Below, piece by piece: positions 51,899 to 60,576 of a stretch of DNA of 64,000 bases. Source of the DNA: Exiguobacterium sp. J17977 (GTDB taxonomy: Bacteria; Bacillota; Bacilli; Exiguobacteriales; Exiguobacteriaceae). Where the stretch lies: positions 1 through 64,000 of the forward strand of contig NZ_JAEQBB010000001.1 of the NCBI RefSeq assembly GCF_018616375.1. The letters run 5' to 3'. Numbering within the stretch: the stretch's first letter is position 1; every line of letters starts with the position of its first letter. Both the position numbers and the translations under genes were made by a program. Below the pieces are notes generated by a model, which did no database searches, was not told where the DNA came from, and saw only the letters and a list, made by a program, of their open reading frames with translations.

Positions 51899-52753
51899 AT
51901 GCCATTAGTATCAATGACAGAAATGCTTAACAAAGCATTCGAAGGCAAGTATGCAGTAGGCCAATTCAACATCAACAACCTCGAGTGGACGCAAGCGATT
52001 CTTCGCGCTGCGGAAGACGAGAAATCACCAGTTATCCTCGGTGTATCAGAAGGTGCAGCGAAGTACATGGGTGGCTTCACAACAGTTGTTAAAATGACTG
52101 AAGGTCTCATGCACGACTACAACATCACTGTTCCAGTTGCAATCCACCTCGACCACGGTTCATCTTTCGACAAGTGTAAAGCAGCAATCGACGCTGGTTT
52201 CACGTCTGTTATGATCGACGGTTCACACCACCCGATCGAAGAGAACATCGAAATGACGAAACAAGTCGTTGAATACGCACACGCTAAAGGTGCTTCAGTT
52301 GAAGCGGAAGTCGGCACAGTCGGCGGCGAAGAAGACGGCGTTGTTGGCGGCGTACAATACGCTGACCTCGACGAGTGCGTACGTGTCGTCAAAGAAGCGA
52401 AAGTTGACGCTCTTGCAGCGGCACTCGGTTCTGTACACGGAGAATACCAAGGCGAGCCTAAACTCGGCTTCAAAGAGATGGAAGAAATCGCAGAAGCGAC
52501 TAAAACTCCACTCGTTCTTCACGGCGGTTCAGGTATTCCTGAGCACCAAATCAAAAAAGCAATCGAGCTCGGTCACAGCAAAATCAACGTTAACACAGAG
52601 TGCCAACAAGAATGGACTCGTGCCGTACGTGAGAAGCTCAACACGGACTCGAAAGTATATGACCCACGTAAAGTCATCGGCCCTGGTGTCGAAGCGATCT
52701 ATAACGTCGTTACTGGCAAAATGCGTGAGTTCGGTTCAAGCAACCAAGCATAA
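51899..52753 (+). CDS. fbaA: Class II fructose-bisphosphate aldolase
   Basis: A 284-residue zinc aldolase cleaving fructose-1,6-bisphosphate to two triose phosphates in glycolysis, and running in reverse in gluconeogenesis. Zinc ligands and the active site are visible: [13 protein letters not shown] (His and Asp), [14 protein letters not shown] (Glu), [12 protein letters not shown] (His) and [11 protein letters not shown] (His). Codon use is skewed to preferred codons, unlike its neighbours, as expected for a highly expressed gene. ATG 51899 lies behind AGGAGG. It has its own promoter and terminator, separating it from tal. Confidence 0.95.
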
Positions 52754-52765
52754 TCCTGTCACATC

Positions 52766-52798
52766 AGTCGGTTCTCCCTGTGAGGACCGGCTTTTTTT
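52766..52798 (+). terminator. Rho-independent terminator of fbaA
   Basis: AGTCGGTTCTC and GAGGACCGGCT arms (with G-T pairs), then TTTTTTT. Confidence 0.85.
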
Positions 52799-53604: not shown

Positions 53605-54858
53605 GTGGAAATTCTCCATATCGTAGGACAGCAGAAACTTGAAGGAACAGTTGACATTAGCGGTGCCAAACAGAGCGCCTTGCCTTGTCTCGTCGCAGCA
53701 CTTTTGACAGAAGAACCGGTGACGATTGAGAACGTCCCTGTCATCGAGGACGTCGAAGTGATGCTCAGTCTATTACAAGAACTCGGCGTCGCGATTGAAC
53801 GGGACGGGGAACGGATGACGCTTCATGCAAAAGATGCCGTCGCCATGCCGTTGCTCGGCTCCGAGACGCGTAAAGTCCGAGCCGCTGTCTATTTGCTCGG
53901 GGTGTTCGCGGCTCGCTTTGGGAAAGGAGCCGTGGGGCTTCCCGGTGGATATGCGATTGGTCCACGACCGATCGATTTACATTTGAAGGCACTCGAACGT
54001 CTCGGGATTAAAGTCGAGAACGAGTCGGGACTGTATCATGTGAACGCCGAAAAGCTGGAAGGGAATCGCATCTATCTCGACCTCCGTTCGTTCGGGGCGA
54101 CGGTGAGTGCCATGCTCGCAGCCGTGCTCGCTGATGGAACGACCGTCATCGAGAATGCGGCCATCGACCCAGAAATCGTCGACGTCGCCACGATGCTCAC
54201 TTCGATGGGGGCCCACGTTATCGGGGCGGGCACCGACGAGATTCGCATCAAAGGGGTCGACAAACTCCACGGCTGTACACACACGCTCATTCCCGATCGA
54301 TTAGAGGCTGGGACGTTCATGATTTATGGCGCGGTCGCGGGCGAAGTGACAGTACGCAACGTCATTCCGACCCACTTAGAAGGCGTCATTCAAAAACTAT
54401 TGGATTACGGGGCCGACGTCGAAGTCGGGGAAGAGACGATCACGGTGCGGGCGAACGCCTTCGAACCAATCGATATTCGTGTCTTCCATTACTCGGGTTA
54501 TCCGACCGACTTACAACCGATCATGTCGGCCGCGCTGTTGAAAGCGAACGGGACGAGTATCGTCACCGATAAGCTGTACGCCCAACGTTTCCGTCATATT
54601 GCGGAAATGCGGCGCATGAACGCGCAGATTACGCTCGAGGACGCTTCGGCTGTCATCCGTGGTGGGACAACGCTCGCCAATGCGGAGATGGAATGTGCGG
54701 ACGCACGGAGCGGGGCAGCCCTCGCTTTAGCGGGACTTCAAGCGAGTGGCGAGTCCACCGTAATCCACGCGGAAAAATTGAACGATTCATATGTCGATTT
54801 CGTCGGCAAACTAAAACAACTCGGCGCGCTCGTCTGGGTCGATGAGGTGTCCGAGTAA
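53605..54858 (+). CDS. MurA-like protein (UDP-GlcNAc enolpyruvyltransferase fold) lacking catalytic residues
   Basis: The locus and sequence match MurA2/MurAB, the EPSP-synthase-fold enzyme that starts peptidoglycan synthesis by adding enolpyruvate to UDP-GlcNAc. The protein is 417 residues, full length, with GTG 53605 as start behind AGAAAGG. Several family residues are changed. The catalytic Cys (Cys115 in E. coli) is Tyr116 in [11 protein letters not shown], codon TAT at 53950-53952. The Lys22-Asn23 pair is Lys22-Gln23 (SGAKQSALP). The Arg of the terminal HIDRGY motif is Asp394 in KLNDSYVDF. The catalytic Asp in YPTDLQ, the Arg in GPRP and the fold are kept. I expect no MurA activity and no fosfomycin binding; a substrate-binding or regulatory role is possible. 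Another MurA must exist elsewhere. Confidence 0.85.
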
Positions 54859-54874: not shown

Positions 54875-55843
54875 GTGGAACGTAGTTTATCAATGGAATT
54901 GGTCCGAGTCACAGAAGCGGCAGCGCTATCTTCGGCTCGTTGGATGGGTAAAGGCTTGAAAGAAGAGGCAGATGACGCGGCGACGACCGCGATGCGTGAA
55001 GTGTTCGATACGATTCCGATGAAAGGAGTCGTCGTCATCGGGGAAGGCGAGATGGACGAGGCGCCGATGCTCTACATCGGTGAGAAAGTCGGGAACGGCT
55101 ATGGCTCACGCCTCGACGTCGCCGTCGATCCGCTCGAAGGGACGAGCATCGTCGCGACGGGAACGTGGGGAGCACTCGCCGTGCTCGCCGTCGCCGATGC
55201 GGGTGATTTATTGCACGCGCCAGACATGTATATGGATAAAATCGCTGTCGGTCCGGAAGCGGCCGGGTTGATCAGTCTCGACAACTCGATTGAAGAGAAT
55301 ATCGCCATCGTCGCCAAGGCGAAGAACAAGAACGTCGAAGACGTCGTCGTCACGATTTTACATCGTGACCGTCACGAAGAGATGATTCAACGCGTTCGTG
55401 CCACGGGTGCCCGCATCAAGTTGATTCCCGACGGAGACGTGGCTGCGGCCATCAACACGGCGTTCCCGAAAACGGGCGTCGACTTGTTGCTCGGCTCTGG
55501 CGGTGCGCCGGAAGGTGTCATCGCGGCCGTCGCGATGAAGTGTCTCGGCGGTGACTTCCAAGGTCGCCTGCTTCCTGAAGACGAAGCCCAAGAGAAGCGT
55601 TGCCAAGACATGGGCATCGCCGATACAGGCCGGATTTTACTATTGGACGACCTCGTCAAAGGAGAAGATTGCATCTTCGCCGCGACGGGTGTGACGGACG
55701 GGGAGTTGCTCCGCGGCGTCCAGTTCACTGGACAAGGCGGTCAGACGCACTCGGTCGTCATGCGTGCCAAGTCAGGGACGGTCCGTTTCGTCGAAGGCAT
55801 CCACTCCTTGAAGAAAAAACCGAAAATGGTCATGAAACCTTAA
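54875..55843 (+). CDS. glpX: Class II fructose-1,6-bisphosphatase
   Basis: A 322-residue gluconeogenic phosphatase of the GlpX type. The N-terminus [17 protein letters not shown] is nearly the B. subtilis sequence. The metal/phosphate site motifs are [14 protein letters not shown] (two Glu and Asp), the DPLEGTS loop (Asp, Glu) near residue 93, and GSGGAPEGV near residue 210. The Li+-sensitive phosphatase fold is complete. Start GTG 54875 is 7 bases after AAAGGGGGAG. Its place between murA2 and rho is conserved, and it shares its 5' neighbourhood with the MurA-like gene (16-base gap). Confidence 0.94.
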
Positions 55844-55851
55844 TTCTCTCG

Positions 55852-55882
55852 AGCTGTGGACATTGCGTCCACAGCTTTTTTG
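55852..55882 (+). terminator. Rho-independent terminator of glpX
   Basis: AGCTGTGGAC and GTCCACAGCT arms with an ATTGC loop, then TTTTTT. Confidence 0.88.
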
Positions 55883-55944
55883 ATGTGTTTCTTCATATTT
55901 AACATGCGGATAGAACGGGAATGGAAGAGGAGGAGGTGGGTGTG

Positions 55945-56871
55945 ATGATTGAAGTGGAATCGCTCGTCAAAACGTTCGGGGACGTGCCGGCCGTCGATGG
56001 AATCTCGTTCTCGGTGCAAGAAGGAGAGATTTTCGCTTTCCTTGGACCGAACGGGGCCGGCAAGTCGACGACCGTGCAAATGTTGACGACGCTCGTACGA
56101 CCGACCGAAGGGAAAGCGCGGGTAAACGGATTCGATGTCGTCAAACAAGAGAAGGACGTCCGCTTGTCCATCGGTGTCGCCCTGCAAGAGACCGGAATCG
56201 ATAAAGTATTGACCGGGCGGGAACTGCTCGTCCTGCAAGGGCGGTTGTTCAAGATGACAAAACAAGAGGCGGAGACGCGCGCCGAGGAACTGCTCCGTGT
56301 CGTCTCACTCACGGAAGCGGCCGACCGGAGAAGCGGGACGTATTCGGGCGGGATGCGGCGCCGGCTCGATTTGGCGCTCACGCTCGTCCATCGACCGACC
56401 GTCTTGTTTTTAGATGAACCGACGACGGGGCTCGACCCGGCGAGCCGCATCGAGATTTGGAACGAGGTGAGACGACTCAACGAAGAGTTCGGTACGACGA
56501 TTTTCTTGACGACCCAGTACTTAGAGGAAGCAGATGAACTAGCCGACCGAATTGCCATCATCAATCATGGGAAAATCGTCAGTGAAGGAACGGCCGAGGC
56601 GCTGAAACGACTCGTCGGCGGCGAGACGATTGCGATGACGTTTCACAGCAATCAAGAGGCGGCCGCAGCCGCTGCGCTGTTCGGTCATGCGGCGACCGGG
56701 CAACACGTGGCGTTCGAGCTCGTCGACCATACGCTGATGGAAGTCGTGCGCCAGCTCGATGAGCGGTCGCTTCAACCGGAAAGTCTGACCGTGAAGCAAC
56801 CGTCGCTCGATGACGTCTTTTTGAAAGTGACCGGCGAGTCATACGAAGGAGGTGTGCCCGATGTGGACTGA
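55945..56871 (+). CDS. ABC transporter ATP-binding protein (DrrA type)
   Basis: A 308-residue ATPase of the drug/polysaccharide ABC exporter class. It has Walker A FLGPNGAGKSTT (near residue 36), the Q-loop, an ABC signature in modified form YSGGMRRRLDL, Walker B VLFLDEPTTGLD and the H-loop-like TTQYLEEADEL. The DrrA-type C-terminal extension ends in QPSLDDVFLKVTG. It pairs with the permease gene that overlaps it by 11 bases. Export of a drug or lipid is inferred. ATG 55945 follows GAGGAGGAGGTG. Confidence 0.9.
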   Translation: MIEVESLVKTFGDVPAVDGISFSVQEGEIFAFLGPNGAGKSTTVQMLTTLVRPTEGKARVNGFDVVKQEKDVRLSIGVALQETGIDKVLTGRELLVLQGRLFKMTKQEAETRAEELLRVVSLTEAADRRSGTYSGGMRRRLDLALTLVHRPTVLFLDEPTTGLDPASRIEIWNEVRRLNEEFGTTIFLTTQYLEEADELADRIAIINHGKIVSEGTAEALKRLVGGETIAMTFHSNQEAAAAAALFGHAATGQHVAFELVDHTLMEVVRQLDERSLQPESLTVKQPSLDDVFLKVTGESYEGGVPDVD

Positions 56872-57631
56872 GACATGGCTCTTCACGAAACGGAGTCTCG
56901 TCACGACGATTCGAAATCCGTTTTCGTTCATCCCTAACTTGATTATCTCGGTGTTCTTCCTACTCGTGTATACGAGCGGATTGTCGAGCGTCGCTTCGCT
57001 TCCTCAGTTTGATGGGAGCGCCTATTTGAACTTCATCTTACCTGTCTCCATCGTGTCCGGGGCGGTCGGCGGGGCGGGGGGGACGGGACAGGCGCTCGTC
57101 CGTGATATTGAGAGCGGCTACTTCGCCCGCTTGCTTCTGACTCCGGCGACGCGGACGGCGATTGTGCTCGGACCGATGATTGCCGGGATGCTGCAACTGC
57201 TCGTCCAGACGCTCCTCATTTTCGGGGTGGCGTTCTTGCTCGGTTTGTCGATTCCGGTCGGTCTGCCTGGCTTCTTGTTCACGGTGCTGCTTGCCATCGG
57301 ATTCGGCCTTGGTTTTGCCGGCTACTCGGTCGGTGTCGCGTTGAAGACACGGAACGCTCAGGCTGCACAAGCCGGGACCCTTTTATTTTTCCCGCTCATC
57401 TTCTTGTCAACGACGTTCGTCCCGAAAGAGTTGATTGAGGCGGAATGGCTCAAAGTAGCGGCGACGTTTAATCCGACGACGTATATTTTTGAAGGGATGC
57501 GTGCCGTCTTGACACAACCGACAATTGACTGGAGCGCGTTATCGGCCGGACTTGCCGTTGCCGGGGCGATGAGCGTCATCATGGTCGTGTTCGCGGCGAC
57601 GAACGCACGCGGTGCCTTGAAACAAAAATGA
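56861..57631 (+). CDS. ABC transporter permease (DrrB / ABC-2 type)
   Basis: This 256-residue ABC-2 permease has six membrane helices. Recognisable features are the amphipathic N-terminal stretch (WTETWLFTKRSLVTTIRNP), the ESGYFARLLLTPATRT loop typical of DrrB-like exporters, and the conserved PLIFLSTTFVPKELI and FNPTTYIFEGMRAV segments near the end. It forms the membrane channel with the ATPase encoded just upstream. ATG 56861 overlaps that gene and has AAGGAGGT. Substrate unknown. Confidence 0.87.
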   Translation: MWTETWLFTKRSLVTTIRNPFSFIPNLIISVFFLLVYTSGLSSVASLPQFDGSAYLNFILPVSIVSGAVGGAGGTGQALVRDIESGYFARLLLTPATRTAIVLGPMIAGMLQLLVQTLLIFGVAFLLGLSIPVGLPGFLFTVLLAIGFGLGFAGYSVGVALKTRNAQAAQAGTLLFFPLIFLSTTFVPKELIEAEWLKVAATFNPTTYIFEGMRAVLTQPTIDWSALSAGLAVAGAMSVIMVVFAATNARGALKQK

Positions 57632-57658
57632 CGAGCAAGGGATTCAGCCCCGCTCGTC
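57630..57658 (-). terminator. Terminator-like hairpin between convergent genes
   Basis: GACGAGC (57630-57636) and GCTCGTC (57652-57658), with AGGG/CCC inside. On the minus strand the hairpin is followed by CATTTTTG, so it could end the downstream minus-strand gene; it overlaps both stop regions. Confidence 0.45.
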
Positions 57659-58042
57659 CTGGTCAATCATGAACGTCACAATCAAAAACAGAATAAAACT
57701 GATTAAGGAGACCGTGCCCCCGATGATGAAGTAGACGAGGGTGACGGTCTCATTCCATTGGAACGGGTTCATCGTGTAAAACCACATCCCGCTCGTCAAG
57801 CCGATTGATCCGATGACAGCCGTCCACCCGTGAATCGTAACGAGTAATTGGTTCCGGACCGCATACAAGCGATAGAAGACTCCCCAGGCGAAGACCGATA
57901 GCCAACCGGCGAGCAGAATGTGGGCATGAATCGGACGAAAGGCATAACTGCCGGCACCCGACATGTGCGATCCGAGTACCGTTCCGATGACACCGAAAAC
58001 GGCAGCGAGGCGAATCAAACGAAGACTCCAAATCTTTTCCAT
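57644..58042 (-). CDS. Small heme-copper-oxidase subunit I-like membrane protein
   Basis: A 132-residue protein with four predicted membrane helices. Its FRPIHAHILLAGWLSVFAWGVFYRLY stretch (listed only as a landmark) contains two His one residue apart and resembles the first heme-ligand helix of cbb3-type oxidase subunit I; the following TIHGWTAVIGSIGL segment gives a second His. It is far shorter than a catalytic subunit (about 450 residues) and has no CuB site. Similar 4-helix stand-alone proteins occur in Bacillota with unknown role. Start ATG 58042 is preferred, 12 bases after AAGGAG. Confidence 0.6.
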   Translation of the reverse strand: MEKIWSLRLIRLAAVFGVIGTVLGSHMSGAGSYAFRPIHAHILLAGWLSVFAWGVFYRLYAVRNQLLVTIHGWTAVIGSIGLTSGMWFYTMNPFQWNETVTLVYFIIGGTVSLISFILFLIVTFMIDQDERG

Positions 58043-58113
58043 GGCATAGAACAACTCCTTCGACGTGATGGCTTTATCGTATCGAAGCCAGATGAACAGA
58101 AGATGAACGAACA

Positions 58114-58150
58114 CAAAAAAACGACCCAGTTCCTATGAACCGGGTCGTTT
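58114..58150 (-). terminator. Terminator of the NlpC/P60 gene
   Basis: AAACGACCC-GTTC (58119-58132) and GAAC-GGGTCGTTT (58137-58150). On the minus strand the hairpin ends in TTTTTTTGTG. Confidence 0.85.
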
Positions 58151-58161
58151 GATCGTTTGAA

Positions 58162-58857
58162 TTAAAGGTATGATCCTGCACCGACATAACGTGGTGCCCA
58201 GTAACCTGATGTGAAGCTCGCGTATTTAACGCCGCCTGTTTCAGAGTTGATCATTTGTGTTTTGCTGAGTGCCATTCCAACGTGTTGAATCGTGCTTCCG
58301 TTGTGTGAGAAGAACACGAGGTCGCCGGCTTGAATCGCTGACTTCGAAACTTTTTTCGAGTTTGCGTATTGCGAGCGTGAATCACGTGGGATCGATTTGT
58401 TGATCGCTTTCTTGTAAACGTGACCTGTGTAACCTGAGCAGTCAAAGCCTGAAGTTGTCGTTCCACCGTAACGGTAAGGTGTGCCGAGGTACTTCTTCGA
58501 TTCAGCGACAAGTTTCGTACGAGCGCTTGATGCAGAAGACGTTGTTACTTTAGTGGCAGTTGCTGTGTTTGCTTTCAAGTACGTGTAAGTAGATGAAGCT
58601 GAGATATAACGGTGAGTCCCTTTGTAGTTGATTTTGTAGAACGAACCAACCTTACCAAGGTATGTATAGCGTTGGCCTTTGTTCATCGTTGCTGAAACTT
58701 TCGATGTGAGCGACGGTGCTGTGCGGATGTTCAAGCCGTTGACTTTCGAGTAAGCGAATGTTCCAGTAGCGGCTTCTGCTTGTTCACCTGTTGTGAAAGC
58801 AAGACCCGAGAAAGCGAGAGTGGCAGCGACGATGATAGATGCGAAACGCTTTAACAT
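58162..58857 (-). CDS. Secreted NlpC/P60 peptidoglycan endopeptidase with SH3 domain
   Basis: A 231-residue secreted protein. A signal peptide covers residues 1-29 (MLKRFASIIVAATLAFSG core, cleavage after AEA). A bacterial SH3 domain at about 33-95 (NGLNIRTAPSLTSKV signature) binds cell wall. A Ser/Thr-rich linker leads to an NlpC/P60 domain from about 115. The catalytic Cys is in SGFDCSGYTG, the His in STIQHVGMAL, and the third polar residue is downstream. It cuts stem peptides (typically D-Glu to diaminopimelate). Codons are AT-biased compared with neighbours, as in highly expressed exported genes. A WalR-like box lies about 175 bases upstream. Confidence 0.92.
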   Translation of the reverse strand: MLKRFASIIVAATLAFSGLAFTTGEQAEAATGTFAYSKVNGLNIRTAPSLTSKVSATMNKGQRYTYLGKVGSFYKINYKGTHRYISASSTYTYLKANTATATKVTTSSASSARTKLVAESKKYLGTPYRYGGTTTSGFDCSGYTGHVYKKAINKSIPRDSRSQYANSKKVSKSAIQAGDLVFFSHNGSTIQHVGMALSKTQMINSETGGVKYASFTSGYWAPRYVGAGSYL

Positions 58858-59235: not shown

Positions 59236-60576
59236 ATGAGTCAAACGACTGAACCGGTTAAAAACTACACGCTTCGTGAACTCGAGACGAAGACGTTGAA
59301 AGAGTTATATGAGATCGCGAAAGAAGTGAACGTGCCCCAGTATCGCGAGGCACGGAAACGTGAGCTCATGTTCCGGATATTGAAATCACAGGCAGAATCA
59401 AAAGATCTTTATTTTCTCGAAGGGATCCTTGAAATCATTCCGCCTAACCCACAGTCGCAAAACGATGGCGGTTTTGGTTTCCTGCGCCCCATCAATTACT
59501 CGCAATCGTCTGAAGATATTTATATCGCGGCGTCACAAATTCGTCGCTTCAATCTCCGAAACGGCGACCTCGTGACGGGGAAAGTGCGGAAGCCGAAAGA
59601 GAATGAACGGTTCCAGGGCCTCCTCAGTGTCGAGGCGGTTAACGGCGAGACGACGGACTCGACGCGCAACCGGGACTACTTCCCGGCGCTCACGCCGATT
59701 TATCCGGAGCGACAGATGGTGCTCGAGACGGAGCCGAATCATTTGTCGGTCCGCGTCATGGACATGATTGCGCCCGTCGGTTTCGGACAACGCGGTTTGA
59801 TCGTTGCGCCGCCTAAGGCAGGGAAGACGTCTCTTTTAAAAGAGATTGCCAACTCGATTACGACGAACCATCCGAACGTCGAGTTAATCATTCTGTTGAT
59901 TGATGAGCGGCCGGAAGAAGTGACGGACATTCAACGTTCGGTGCCGGGCGCAGACGTCGCCTACTCGACGTTTGACGAGACACCGGAGAACCATGCCCGC
60001 ATCTCGGAACTCGTGCTCGAACGGGCGATGCGCCTCGTCGAGCATAAGAAGGACGTTGTCATCTTGCTCGACTCGATCACGCGTCTGACGCGGGCGTACA
60101 ACTTGTCCGTCCCGCCGAGCGGACGAACGCTCTCCGGTGGGATTGACCCGGCCGCGTTTCATAAACCGAAGAAATTCTTCGGGGCGGCCCGTAATATCGA
60201 GGACGGCGGCAGTTTGACGATTCTTGGCACCGCCCTCGTCGATACCGGTTCGCGCATGGATGACGTCATCTATGAAGAGTTCAAAGGAACGGGCAACATG
60301 GAGCTGCACCTCGACCGCAAACTGGCGGAACGTCGGATTTTCCCGGCCATCGACATTCGTCGTTCGGGAACGCGCAAGGAAGAATTGCTGCTCGGCAAAG
60401 GCGAACTCGACTCGCTTTGGACGATTCGTCGCACGATGAACGAGTCGCCAGACTTCGTCGATCAGTTCTTGCGCCGGGTCCGCGAGACGAAAACGAACCT
60501 CGACTTTTTTGCGGCGCTTGAGGCCGATAAGAAAAAGAGTCGACGCCCGGTGAAAAAAACGAAAACGGACTTGTAA
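59236..60576 (+). CDS. rho: Transcription termination factor Rho
   Basis: This 446-residue hexameric RNA helicase ends transcription at C-rich sites. The N-terminal RNA-binding domain begins [19 protein letters not shown] and includes the GGFGFLRP oligonucleotide-binding stretch. The ATPase domain has Walker [13 protein letters not shown] (near residue 192), Walker [12 protein letters not shown], and the SGGIDP Q-loop segment with [11 protein letters not shown] 59236 follows GACAGGTG. It heads the rho - rpmE2 - tdk - prfA gene order conserved in Bacillales. Confidence 0.96.

Follow-up and report, generated by a model that had tools for sequence, protein, structure and literature searches.

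The murZ locus and its product

The stretch of DNA analyzed here, a 64-kb window, carries at the murZ (murAB) position a forward-strand gene (53605-54858, GTG start) for a 417-amino acid MurA-fold protein without the catalytic Cys. Its translation yields 417 residues with no internal stops, and a second in-frame start candidate, TTG, lies 51 bases upstream of the GTG. The neighboring genes are also on the forward strand: fbaA, encoding a class II fructose-bisphosphate aldolase (51899-52753; a conserved neighbor, for which the homologous gene of locus L279 was named); a tal/mipB-type gene (TIGR00875; 52928-53578), 26 bases upstream of murZ; glpX, encoding a class II fructose-bisphosphatase (54887-55843), 28 bases downstream; and rho (59236-60576; named by eye), a conserved downstream neighbor. 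Terminator-like hairpins on the same strand lie 3' of fbaA (52766-52792) and 3' of glpX (55851-55877), both from a consensus scan that returned 10 such sites in the 64-kb window against 5.0 expected, and they are possible upstream and downstream limits of a tal-murZ-glpX unit. The window has the gene order spo0F-fbaA-tal-murZ-glpX-rho, as do two loci of a sister genus and two of outgroup Bacilli, and this synteny in four further loci bears out the conserved murA2/murZ locus proposed in the original prediction. The interval between glpX and rho (55921-58857 in the window) holds, as read by eye, a cell-wall hydrolase of the SH3-NlpC/P60 type as well as a pair of ABC transporter genes; the hydrolase is also present in the two sister-genus loci, where the ABC pair is absent, and the two outgroup loci have neither in this interval.

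The product matches the EPSP synthase family (EPSP_synthase, PF00275) and passes the NCBIfam murA model TIGR01072 (459.7 bits, cut-off 392.7). Against the MurZ-type model NF009470 it scores 471.4 bits, below the cut-off of 552, and a canonical Bacilli MurZ (L200) passes that model with 738 bits. Three family members exceed the cut-off in the window's genome: the murZ-position gene, a canonical MurA1, and a third copy that reads as AroA-type. The search for another MurA in the genome, suggested originally, thus recovered a canonical Cys-type MurA1, whose gene adjoins genes resembling, by eye, atpD, atpC and an mreB relative. The same altered murZ-position gene is seen in records of Exiguobacterium profundum and Exiguobacterium sp. 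s124.

Catalytic residues across the order

The active site of the product departs from that of canonical MurA at several positions. Lys22 is kept and is followed by Gln23 (codons at 53668-53673, forward strand), where all 82 canonical MurA sequences have Asn; Tyr116 (TAT, 53950-53952, forward strand) replaces the catalytic Cys (E. coli Cys115); and Asp394-Ser395 (54784-54789, forward strand) replace Arg-Gly (E. coli Arg397-Gly398). Lys22-Gln23, Tyr116 and Asp394 (54784-54786) were read by translation exactly as first described. The altered murZ gene occurs in all 38 genomes of the order that we examined (19 of the window's genus and 19 of the sister genus), where it spans residues 1 to 414-417 without a single internal stop, in keeping with the earlier view of an open frame that reflects neither decay nor a single sequencing error. 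Tyr occupies the catalytic Cys position in 38/38 genomes, Lys22 is kept while Asn23 is replaced by Gln in 38/38, and Gly395, in the E. coli Gly398 column, is Ser in 38/38. The Arg that contacts the PEP phosphate (Arg397 equivalent) is lost from every genome, its place being taken by Asp in 18, Asn in 1, Gln in 18 and Lys in 1. Conservation across the clade therefore holds for Tyr116, for Gln23 and for the absence of the Arg, but not for Asp394 itself. Position 394 appears to have been released from constraint, with Asp as one of four replacements, and drift at this position would be expected if PEP binding has been lost. For Gln23 the 38 genomes divide evenly between CAG (19) and CAA (19), and for Tyr116 37 use TAT and one uses TAC; this synonymous turnover points to selection on the residues rather than on the bases alone.

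We read 23 MurA1 copies from the 38 genomes, and in the same columns these hold Lys, Asn and Cys in 23/23 and Arg in 22/23, the sole copy without Arg having a frameshift close to its end. That copy (L063; G004:C13:57609-58845) comes from a genome listed with 8% contamination, and the frameshift near its 3' end is probably an assembly artefact; it was left out of the 82-row canonical set and of the dN/dS analysis described below.

Sequencing or assembly error and pseudogene formation were considered as sources of the altered gene and were ruled out by its intact presence in 38/38 genomes. An isolated mutation was also ruled out, the contrasting case being that of G559, a clostridial genome in which one MurA shows the Cys to Tyr change by itself and whose siblings keep the Cys. 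The situation raised originally as evidence against a pseudoenzyme, in which close relatives keep the Cys and this copy alone is mutated, is excluded by Tyr in all 38 genomes.

Distinctiveness among MurA proteins

The canonical set of 82 sequences comprised 22 Exiguobacterium MurA1, 40 MurZ-type sequences of other Bacilli and 20 MurA1-type sequences of other Bacilli; these 60 rows from other Bacilli are not a random sample, having been chosen from a listing of at least 121 genomes, the MurZ-type rows mostly by score. Within this set 74 columns are strictly invariant, of which 21 show departures in the Exiguobacterium MurZ clade. Twelve columns (23, 102, 116, 129, 168, 188, 233, 297, 362, 367, 394 and 395) are changed in all 38 rows, and any single row differs from the invariant residue in 15 to 18 of the 74. 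When each of the 60 rows from other Bacilli was left out in turn, it showed at most two departures. One MurZ-type sequence (L235; G040:C1:131807-133048) carries Glu where E. coli has Gly118, a position that tolerates nothing in an E. coli saturation scan.

A PGGY-type pattern, which sees the Tyr alone and is blind to other losses and other spellings of the loop, was used to scan other bacteria. Across 398 Bacilli genomes (145 genera) it occurred in 39, namely the 38 of this order and one in a protein other than MurA. A sample of the phylum (299 genomes) gave three: that of the window, the clostridial G559, and one in which the stretch examined gave no match to MurA. Applied to genome contigs the pattern was too loose to serve as a census, at least 120 stretches matching, and among the 120 listed two were MurA relatives, both from Exiguobacterium. 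The MurA encoded by the G559 gene (L284/L287, G559:C137) is canonical, with Lys-Asn and Arg in place, except for its Cys to Tyr change; its apparent orthologs in sibling genomes (L289 and L290; G607 and G677) keep the Cys, and the change is either isolated or an assembly error. A second altered MurA paralog was found in 4/4 genomes searched of one clostridial genus (L288, L291, L292 and L293, from G654, G559, G677 and G607), with Cys115 replaced by Asp and Arg397 kept in 4/4, and with Lys22 kept and Asn23 replaced by Tyr in the 3/3 that cover the site; one of these (L291) exceeds the NCBI murA cut-off. IMG/VR contigs classed as viral, and L282, also carry Cys-bearing MurA genes, with a MurA match in 10 of 13 stretches. 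Four of these 10 genes are truncated where the contig or stretch ends, and the genes on such contigs are possibly host flanks.

Descent and selection

By tree and synteny, the gene at 53605-54858 is a vertical MurAB/MurZ copy. In a quick tree of 83 rows, with Exiguobacterium rows thinned from 38 to 15 for MurZ and from 22 to 8 for MurA1, the altered clade nests within MurZ (SH-aLRT support is 100 for the MurZ side and, for two nests within it, 97 and 98); long-branch error is possible in such a tree, and the locus order agrees with the placement. The stem of the clade is the longest branch, at 2.1 changes per column (site), followed by one of 1.1, and the stem of Exiguobacterium MurA1 measures 0.34 changes per column. 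The ratio of MurZ to MurA1 distance has a median of 1.33 among other Bacilli (136 pairs, largest 4.31) and of 2.88 between Exiguobacterium and other Bacilli (68 pairs, 2.18 to 5.04). It is 4.0 to 4.4 between the two Exiguobacterium genera (3 pairs), and 1.5, 5.6 and 6.5 in three pairs within the window's genus. Median dN/dS in the window's genus is 0.041 for altered murZ vs 0.018 for MurA1, as calculated with our own script for 18 genomes, of whose 153 pairs 62 were used after the 91 outside dS 0.02-1.0 had been dropped. Altered murZ has thus undergone a burst of change followed by purifying selection that is looser than that on MurA1.

Predicted structure and the UDP-GlcNAc site

A structure model built from a 13-row alignment has a mean pLDDT of 90.9 and a pTM of 0.91 (a run with 3 closely related rows gave pLDDT 44 and was discarded); the stretch with pLDDT below 50 is 117-120, within the catalytic loop. 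A fold search places MurA chains in its first 34 rows (Z 52.5-58.2, 1.2-2.0 Å, 404-416 residues aligned), which agrees with the earlier description of a MurA-like protein with an intact fold. The top match, 9a7b (Z 58.2), is a deposited MURA2-MURA1 model from crosslinking. Ligand-bound MurA structures match at Z of about 57-58 and 1.2-1.4 Å, and unliganded entries score slightly lower (1dlg 54.4, 4e7g 53.9, 4eii 53.4); this closed-like match says little about the resting state, since closed forms may be common among predicted MurA structures. Matches outside the family include NikO (Z 44.8) and AroA (Z 40.4).

Five residues that bind UDP-GlcNAc or act on it (Arg91, Arg120, Ser162, Gly164 and Asp305) have kept equivalents in 38/38 altered sequences, as have Lys22, Arg331 and Arg371 in the altered clade. 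The equivalent of Val163, which lines the diphosphate pocket of MurA (PMC10500568), is Val in 80/82 canonical rows and Phe in 38/38 altered ones, so that UDP-GlcNAc binding is perhaps altered too, a point against an adaptor role. An E. coli saturation scan reports no viable substitution at MurA Cys115, Asp included (PMC9842644), while MurA C115D is described as active in vitro and C115E as inactive (PMC4790336). Eight of the ten least tolerant E. coli MurA positions are kept in the altered clade, including Ser162, Gly164, Arg120 and Asp231, and the two that are changed are Cys115 and Gly398. At Gly398 the table of the scan permits Thr and its text Ser (PMC9842644), so Ser395 alone need not abolish activity. 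Asn23 and Arg397 lie outside the ten least tolerant positions in the same report (PMC9842644), which counts against a loss of activity.

Judged by these residues together, altered MurZ has very probably lost UDP-GlcNAc enolpyruvyl transfer, and a residue test provisionally places it outside the functional transferase family (EC 2.5.1.7). Nucleotide-sugar binding may have been retained where enolpyruvate transfer has not. The phosphonate of fosfomycin is reported to be held by Lys22, Arg120 and Arg397 (PMC4790336), and altered MurZ is expected to be blind to the drug, as originally suggested; no consequence for the organism would follow, since a MurA1 of the Cys type remains in the cell.

The ReoM/ReoY/ClpCP pathway and the escape columns

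Several reports connect MurZ with the stability of MurA. In Listeria, loss of murZ is reported to stabilize MurA in a manner non-additive with loss of clpC, reoM or reoY, and to rescue a lethal reoM T7A allele, the Discussion terming the role of MurZ in MurA degradation "entirely unclear" (PMC7286690); murZ loss-of-function also recurs among suppressors of prkA mutants (PMC8528326). In E. faecalis, loss of MurAB is described as protecting MurAA from proteolysis and IreB as binding and inhibiting MurAB, and the proposal is made of a complex with the composition MurAA-2IreB-MurAB (PMC12077105). MurAA-MurAB is among four high-scoring paralog dimer models from in-cell crosslinking of B. subtilis (PMC10090944), and a dead Pseudomonas MurA(C117S) is reported still to activate its partner LpxC (PMC9995270). 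Some points in the literature count against an adaptor role: in the available text of the MurZ reports we found no separation of the regulatory role from catalysis, and sporulation of B. anthracis is stated to require MurAB, a need that its authors tie to cell-wall synthesis (PMC12700454). For the present genus, "murADEI" transcripts of E. sibiricum are reported to be up at -2.5 °C, the murA copy being unspecified (PMC2615787). The main text of PMC11383924 makes no mention of MurA.

Genes of this pathway are present in the order. IreB/ReoM and ReoY were each found in 38/38 genomes, and the four ReoM copies that we read have a PRHNDAR Arg stretch and, near the N terminus, a Thr. In the window's genome, the one genome searched, there are two frames for PASTA-domain proteins (655 and 716 amino acids). 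Two Clp_N proteins (819 and 867 amino acids) were found in this same genome, again the one searched, with a search that missed its B. subtilis control, and one of the two reads as ClpC.

Altered MurZ retains part of the MurZ signature: 19 of 43 columns that mark MurZ vs MurA1 are kept in the clade, and 4 of 46 that mark MurA1 have been gained. Listeria MurA variants N197D and S262L, both on exposed helices, are reported to escape ReoM-dependent degradation (PMC8959180). By alignment with Listeria MurA (PDB 3r38) and residue count, Asn197 corresponds to column 196 and Ser262 to column 260; our predicted model shows helices at columns 189-200 and 255-268. At column 196 (Thr196 in the window; codon 54190-54192, forward strand), 41/42 MurA1 have Asn, and 40/40 canonical MurZ and 38/38 altered sequences have Thr. 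Glu259 (codon 54379-54381, forward strand), which adjoins the second escape column, is likewise of MurZ type, being found in 39/40 canonical MurZ and in 38/38 of the altered clade. Column 260 itself is Gly in 19 and Ser in 19 of the altered sequences and holds no MurZ-specific residue, which counts against an adaptor role. Kept MurZ residues are not significantly enriched at the escape helices (4/5 vs 15/38 elsewhere, Fisher P 0.15; columns 189-200 and 253-266, the second stretch beginning two residues before the predicted helix), nor significantly depleted near the catalytic motifs (P 0.23). Purified ReoM is reported to bind the N197D and S262L variants as well as wild type (PMC8959180), so columns 196 and 260 represent no proven contact. 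The sequence signal for an adaptor is no more than suggestive.

A proposed role for altered MurZ and its alternatives

From the loss of catalytic residues, the conservation throughout the clade, the purifying selection, the MurA fold of the model and the pathway genes, all computed here, we infer inactivity, ligand binding and an adaptor role for altered MurZ. The explanation that we favor, and consider evenly balanced between true and false, is that the protein has lost UDP-GlcNAc enolpyruvyl transfer and has been retained for the non-catalytic job of MurZ, namely setting the degradability of MurA1 via ReoM/ReoY/ClpCP; were the transferase loss granted, the chance of an adaptor role would be a little over one half. 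The kept contacts suggest that altered MurZ, folding like MurA, may still bind UDP-GlcNAc. By analogy with its relatives it would pair with the working MurA1, directly and/or via a ReoM (IreB) dimer. Within such a complex, unphosphorylated ReoM together with ReoY would hand MurA1 to ClpCP, and phosphorylation of ReoM by the PASTA kinase would free it. A dead MurZ would in this way set the degradability of MurA1 and, through it, the flux into peptidoglycan. Among the three functions first offered for the protein (binding UDP-GlcNAc, regulating the active MurA, or new chemistry), regulation of the working MurA is thus favored by inference. A rate of change about four times that of MurA1 between the two genera counts against it, as a tight adaptor might change less. 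We regard as rather doubtful the more specific proposal that Exiguobacterium MurZ is a UDP-GlcNAc-sensing pseudoenzyme adaptor that reports precursor level to ReoM/ReoY/ClpCP and thereby controls whether the sole working MurA is destroyed; its likelihood is lowered by Phe at the Val163 position in 38/38. If the proposal is true, regulation and catalysis, joined in other MurZ proteins, would here have been separated in nature.

Retained UDP-GlcNAc contacts could also serve a different end. The protein may be a pseudoenzyme that binds UDP-GlcNAc and either simply buffers this nucleotide sugar or regulates a target other than MurA1 turnover, such as MurG, GlmS/GlmR or some further consumer of the pool; MurA partners outside the ReoM pathway are reported, LpxC in one study (PMC9995270) and, by its title, MurG in another (PMC9975281). 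We consider this unlikely, as it leaves the known MurZ-MurA link unused, the neighboring sugar-phosphate genes hint at no partner, and the pocket Val163 is changed. The invariance of Tyr116 and Gln23, which show no drift, would fit a new enzyme with another acceptor or donor and Tyr116 as its fixed new catalytic group. Such an enzyme could draw on the kept equivalents of Lys22, Arg91, Arg120, Asp305, Arg331 and Arg371 and on a fold that takes other acceptors, as the NikO and AroA matches illustrate and as does a liverwort MurA reported to make EPSP (PMC11588093). It is made decidedly unlikely by the freedom of the Arg397 position (Asp, Asn, Gln or Lys), which argues against PEP as donor, by the Gly398 to Ser change and by nearby genes that hint at no new pathway.

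Less likely again is a slow but active, fosfomycin-insensitive MurA that backs up MurA1. AroA performs the same kind of chemistry without the Cys, a precedent for such an enzyme, and the equivalents of the general base Asp305, of Lys22 and of Arg120 are kept. The activity of C115D also speaks for it, but C115E is inactive (PMC4790336), Cys115 is irreplaceable in the E. coli scan (PMC9842644), and three active-site losses occur jointly in 38/38 genomes. The strong divergence from other MurZ might finally suggest a decaying gene or an assembly error; with the gene free of internal stops in 38/38 genomes, dN/dS of about 0.04 and synonymous turnover at the key codons, this explanation can practically be dismissed.

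Significance and comparison with known systems

These observations bear on why many Bacillota retain two MurA copies and on how losing the second stabilizes the first. Catalysis has apparently been discarded while the protein remains under purifying selection, which suggests that a second function is by itself worth retaining, and altered MurZ may offer a reagent for studying this function without an enzymatic background. Automatic annotation can mislead here: with a product over the murA cut-off, these genomes are likely to be credited with two working MurA enzymes. Our search of the open-access literature, in which some queries were swamped by words beginning with "mura", found neither a MurA pseudoenzyme nor the altered Exiguobacterium MurZ.

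Altered MurZ most resembles MurAB/MurZ, the secondary UDP-GlcNAc 1-carboxyvinyltransferase of Bacillota, of which it is an ortholog by tree and synteny and with which it shares 19 of 43 MurZ-signature residues and several of the contacts to UDP-GlcNAc in a fold of equal kind and length; it differs in having lost the Cys, Asn23, Arg397 and Gly398 equivalents and in falling under the NF009470 cut-off. With the MurZ of Listeria and Enterococcus that takes part in ReoM/ReoY/ClpCP turnover it has in common its gene position and the pathway partner genes, but those proteins are also enzymes, whereas the enzymatic part of Exiguobacterium MurZ has apparently been lost. Like Pseudomonas MurA(C117S), in which a regulatory partner function is kept, it has no Cys nucleophile; the Pseudomonas protein is a mutant made in the laboratory from a Gram-negative enzyme whose partner is likewise Gram-negative, and Exiguobacterium MurZ is a natural paralog. 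The C115D-type MurA of Mycobacterium, Chlamydia and Borrelia offers a further parallel as a natural replacement of Cys115 with expected fosfomycin insensitivity. In that type the Asp is reported to retain activity (PMC4790336), whereas Tyr together with Gln23, and without Arg397, would be expected not to.
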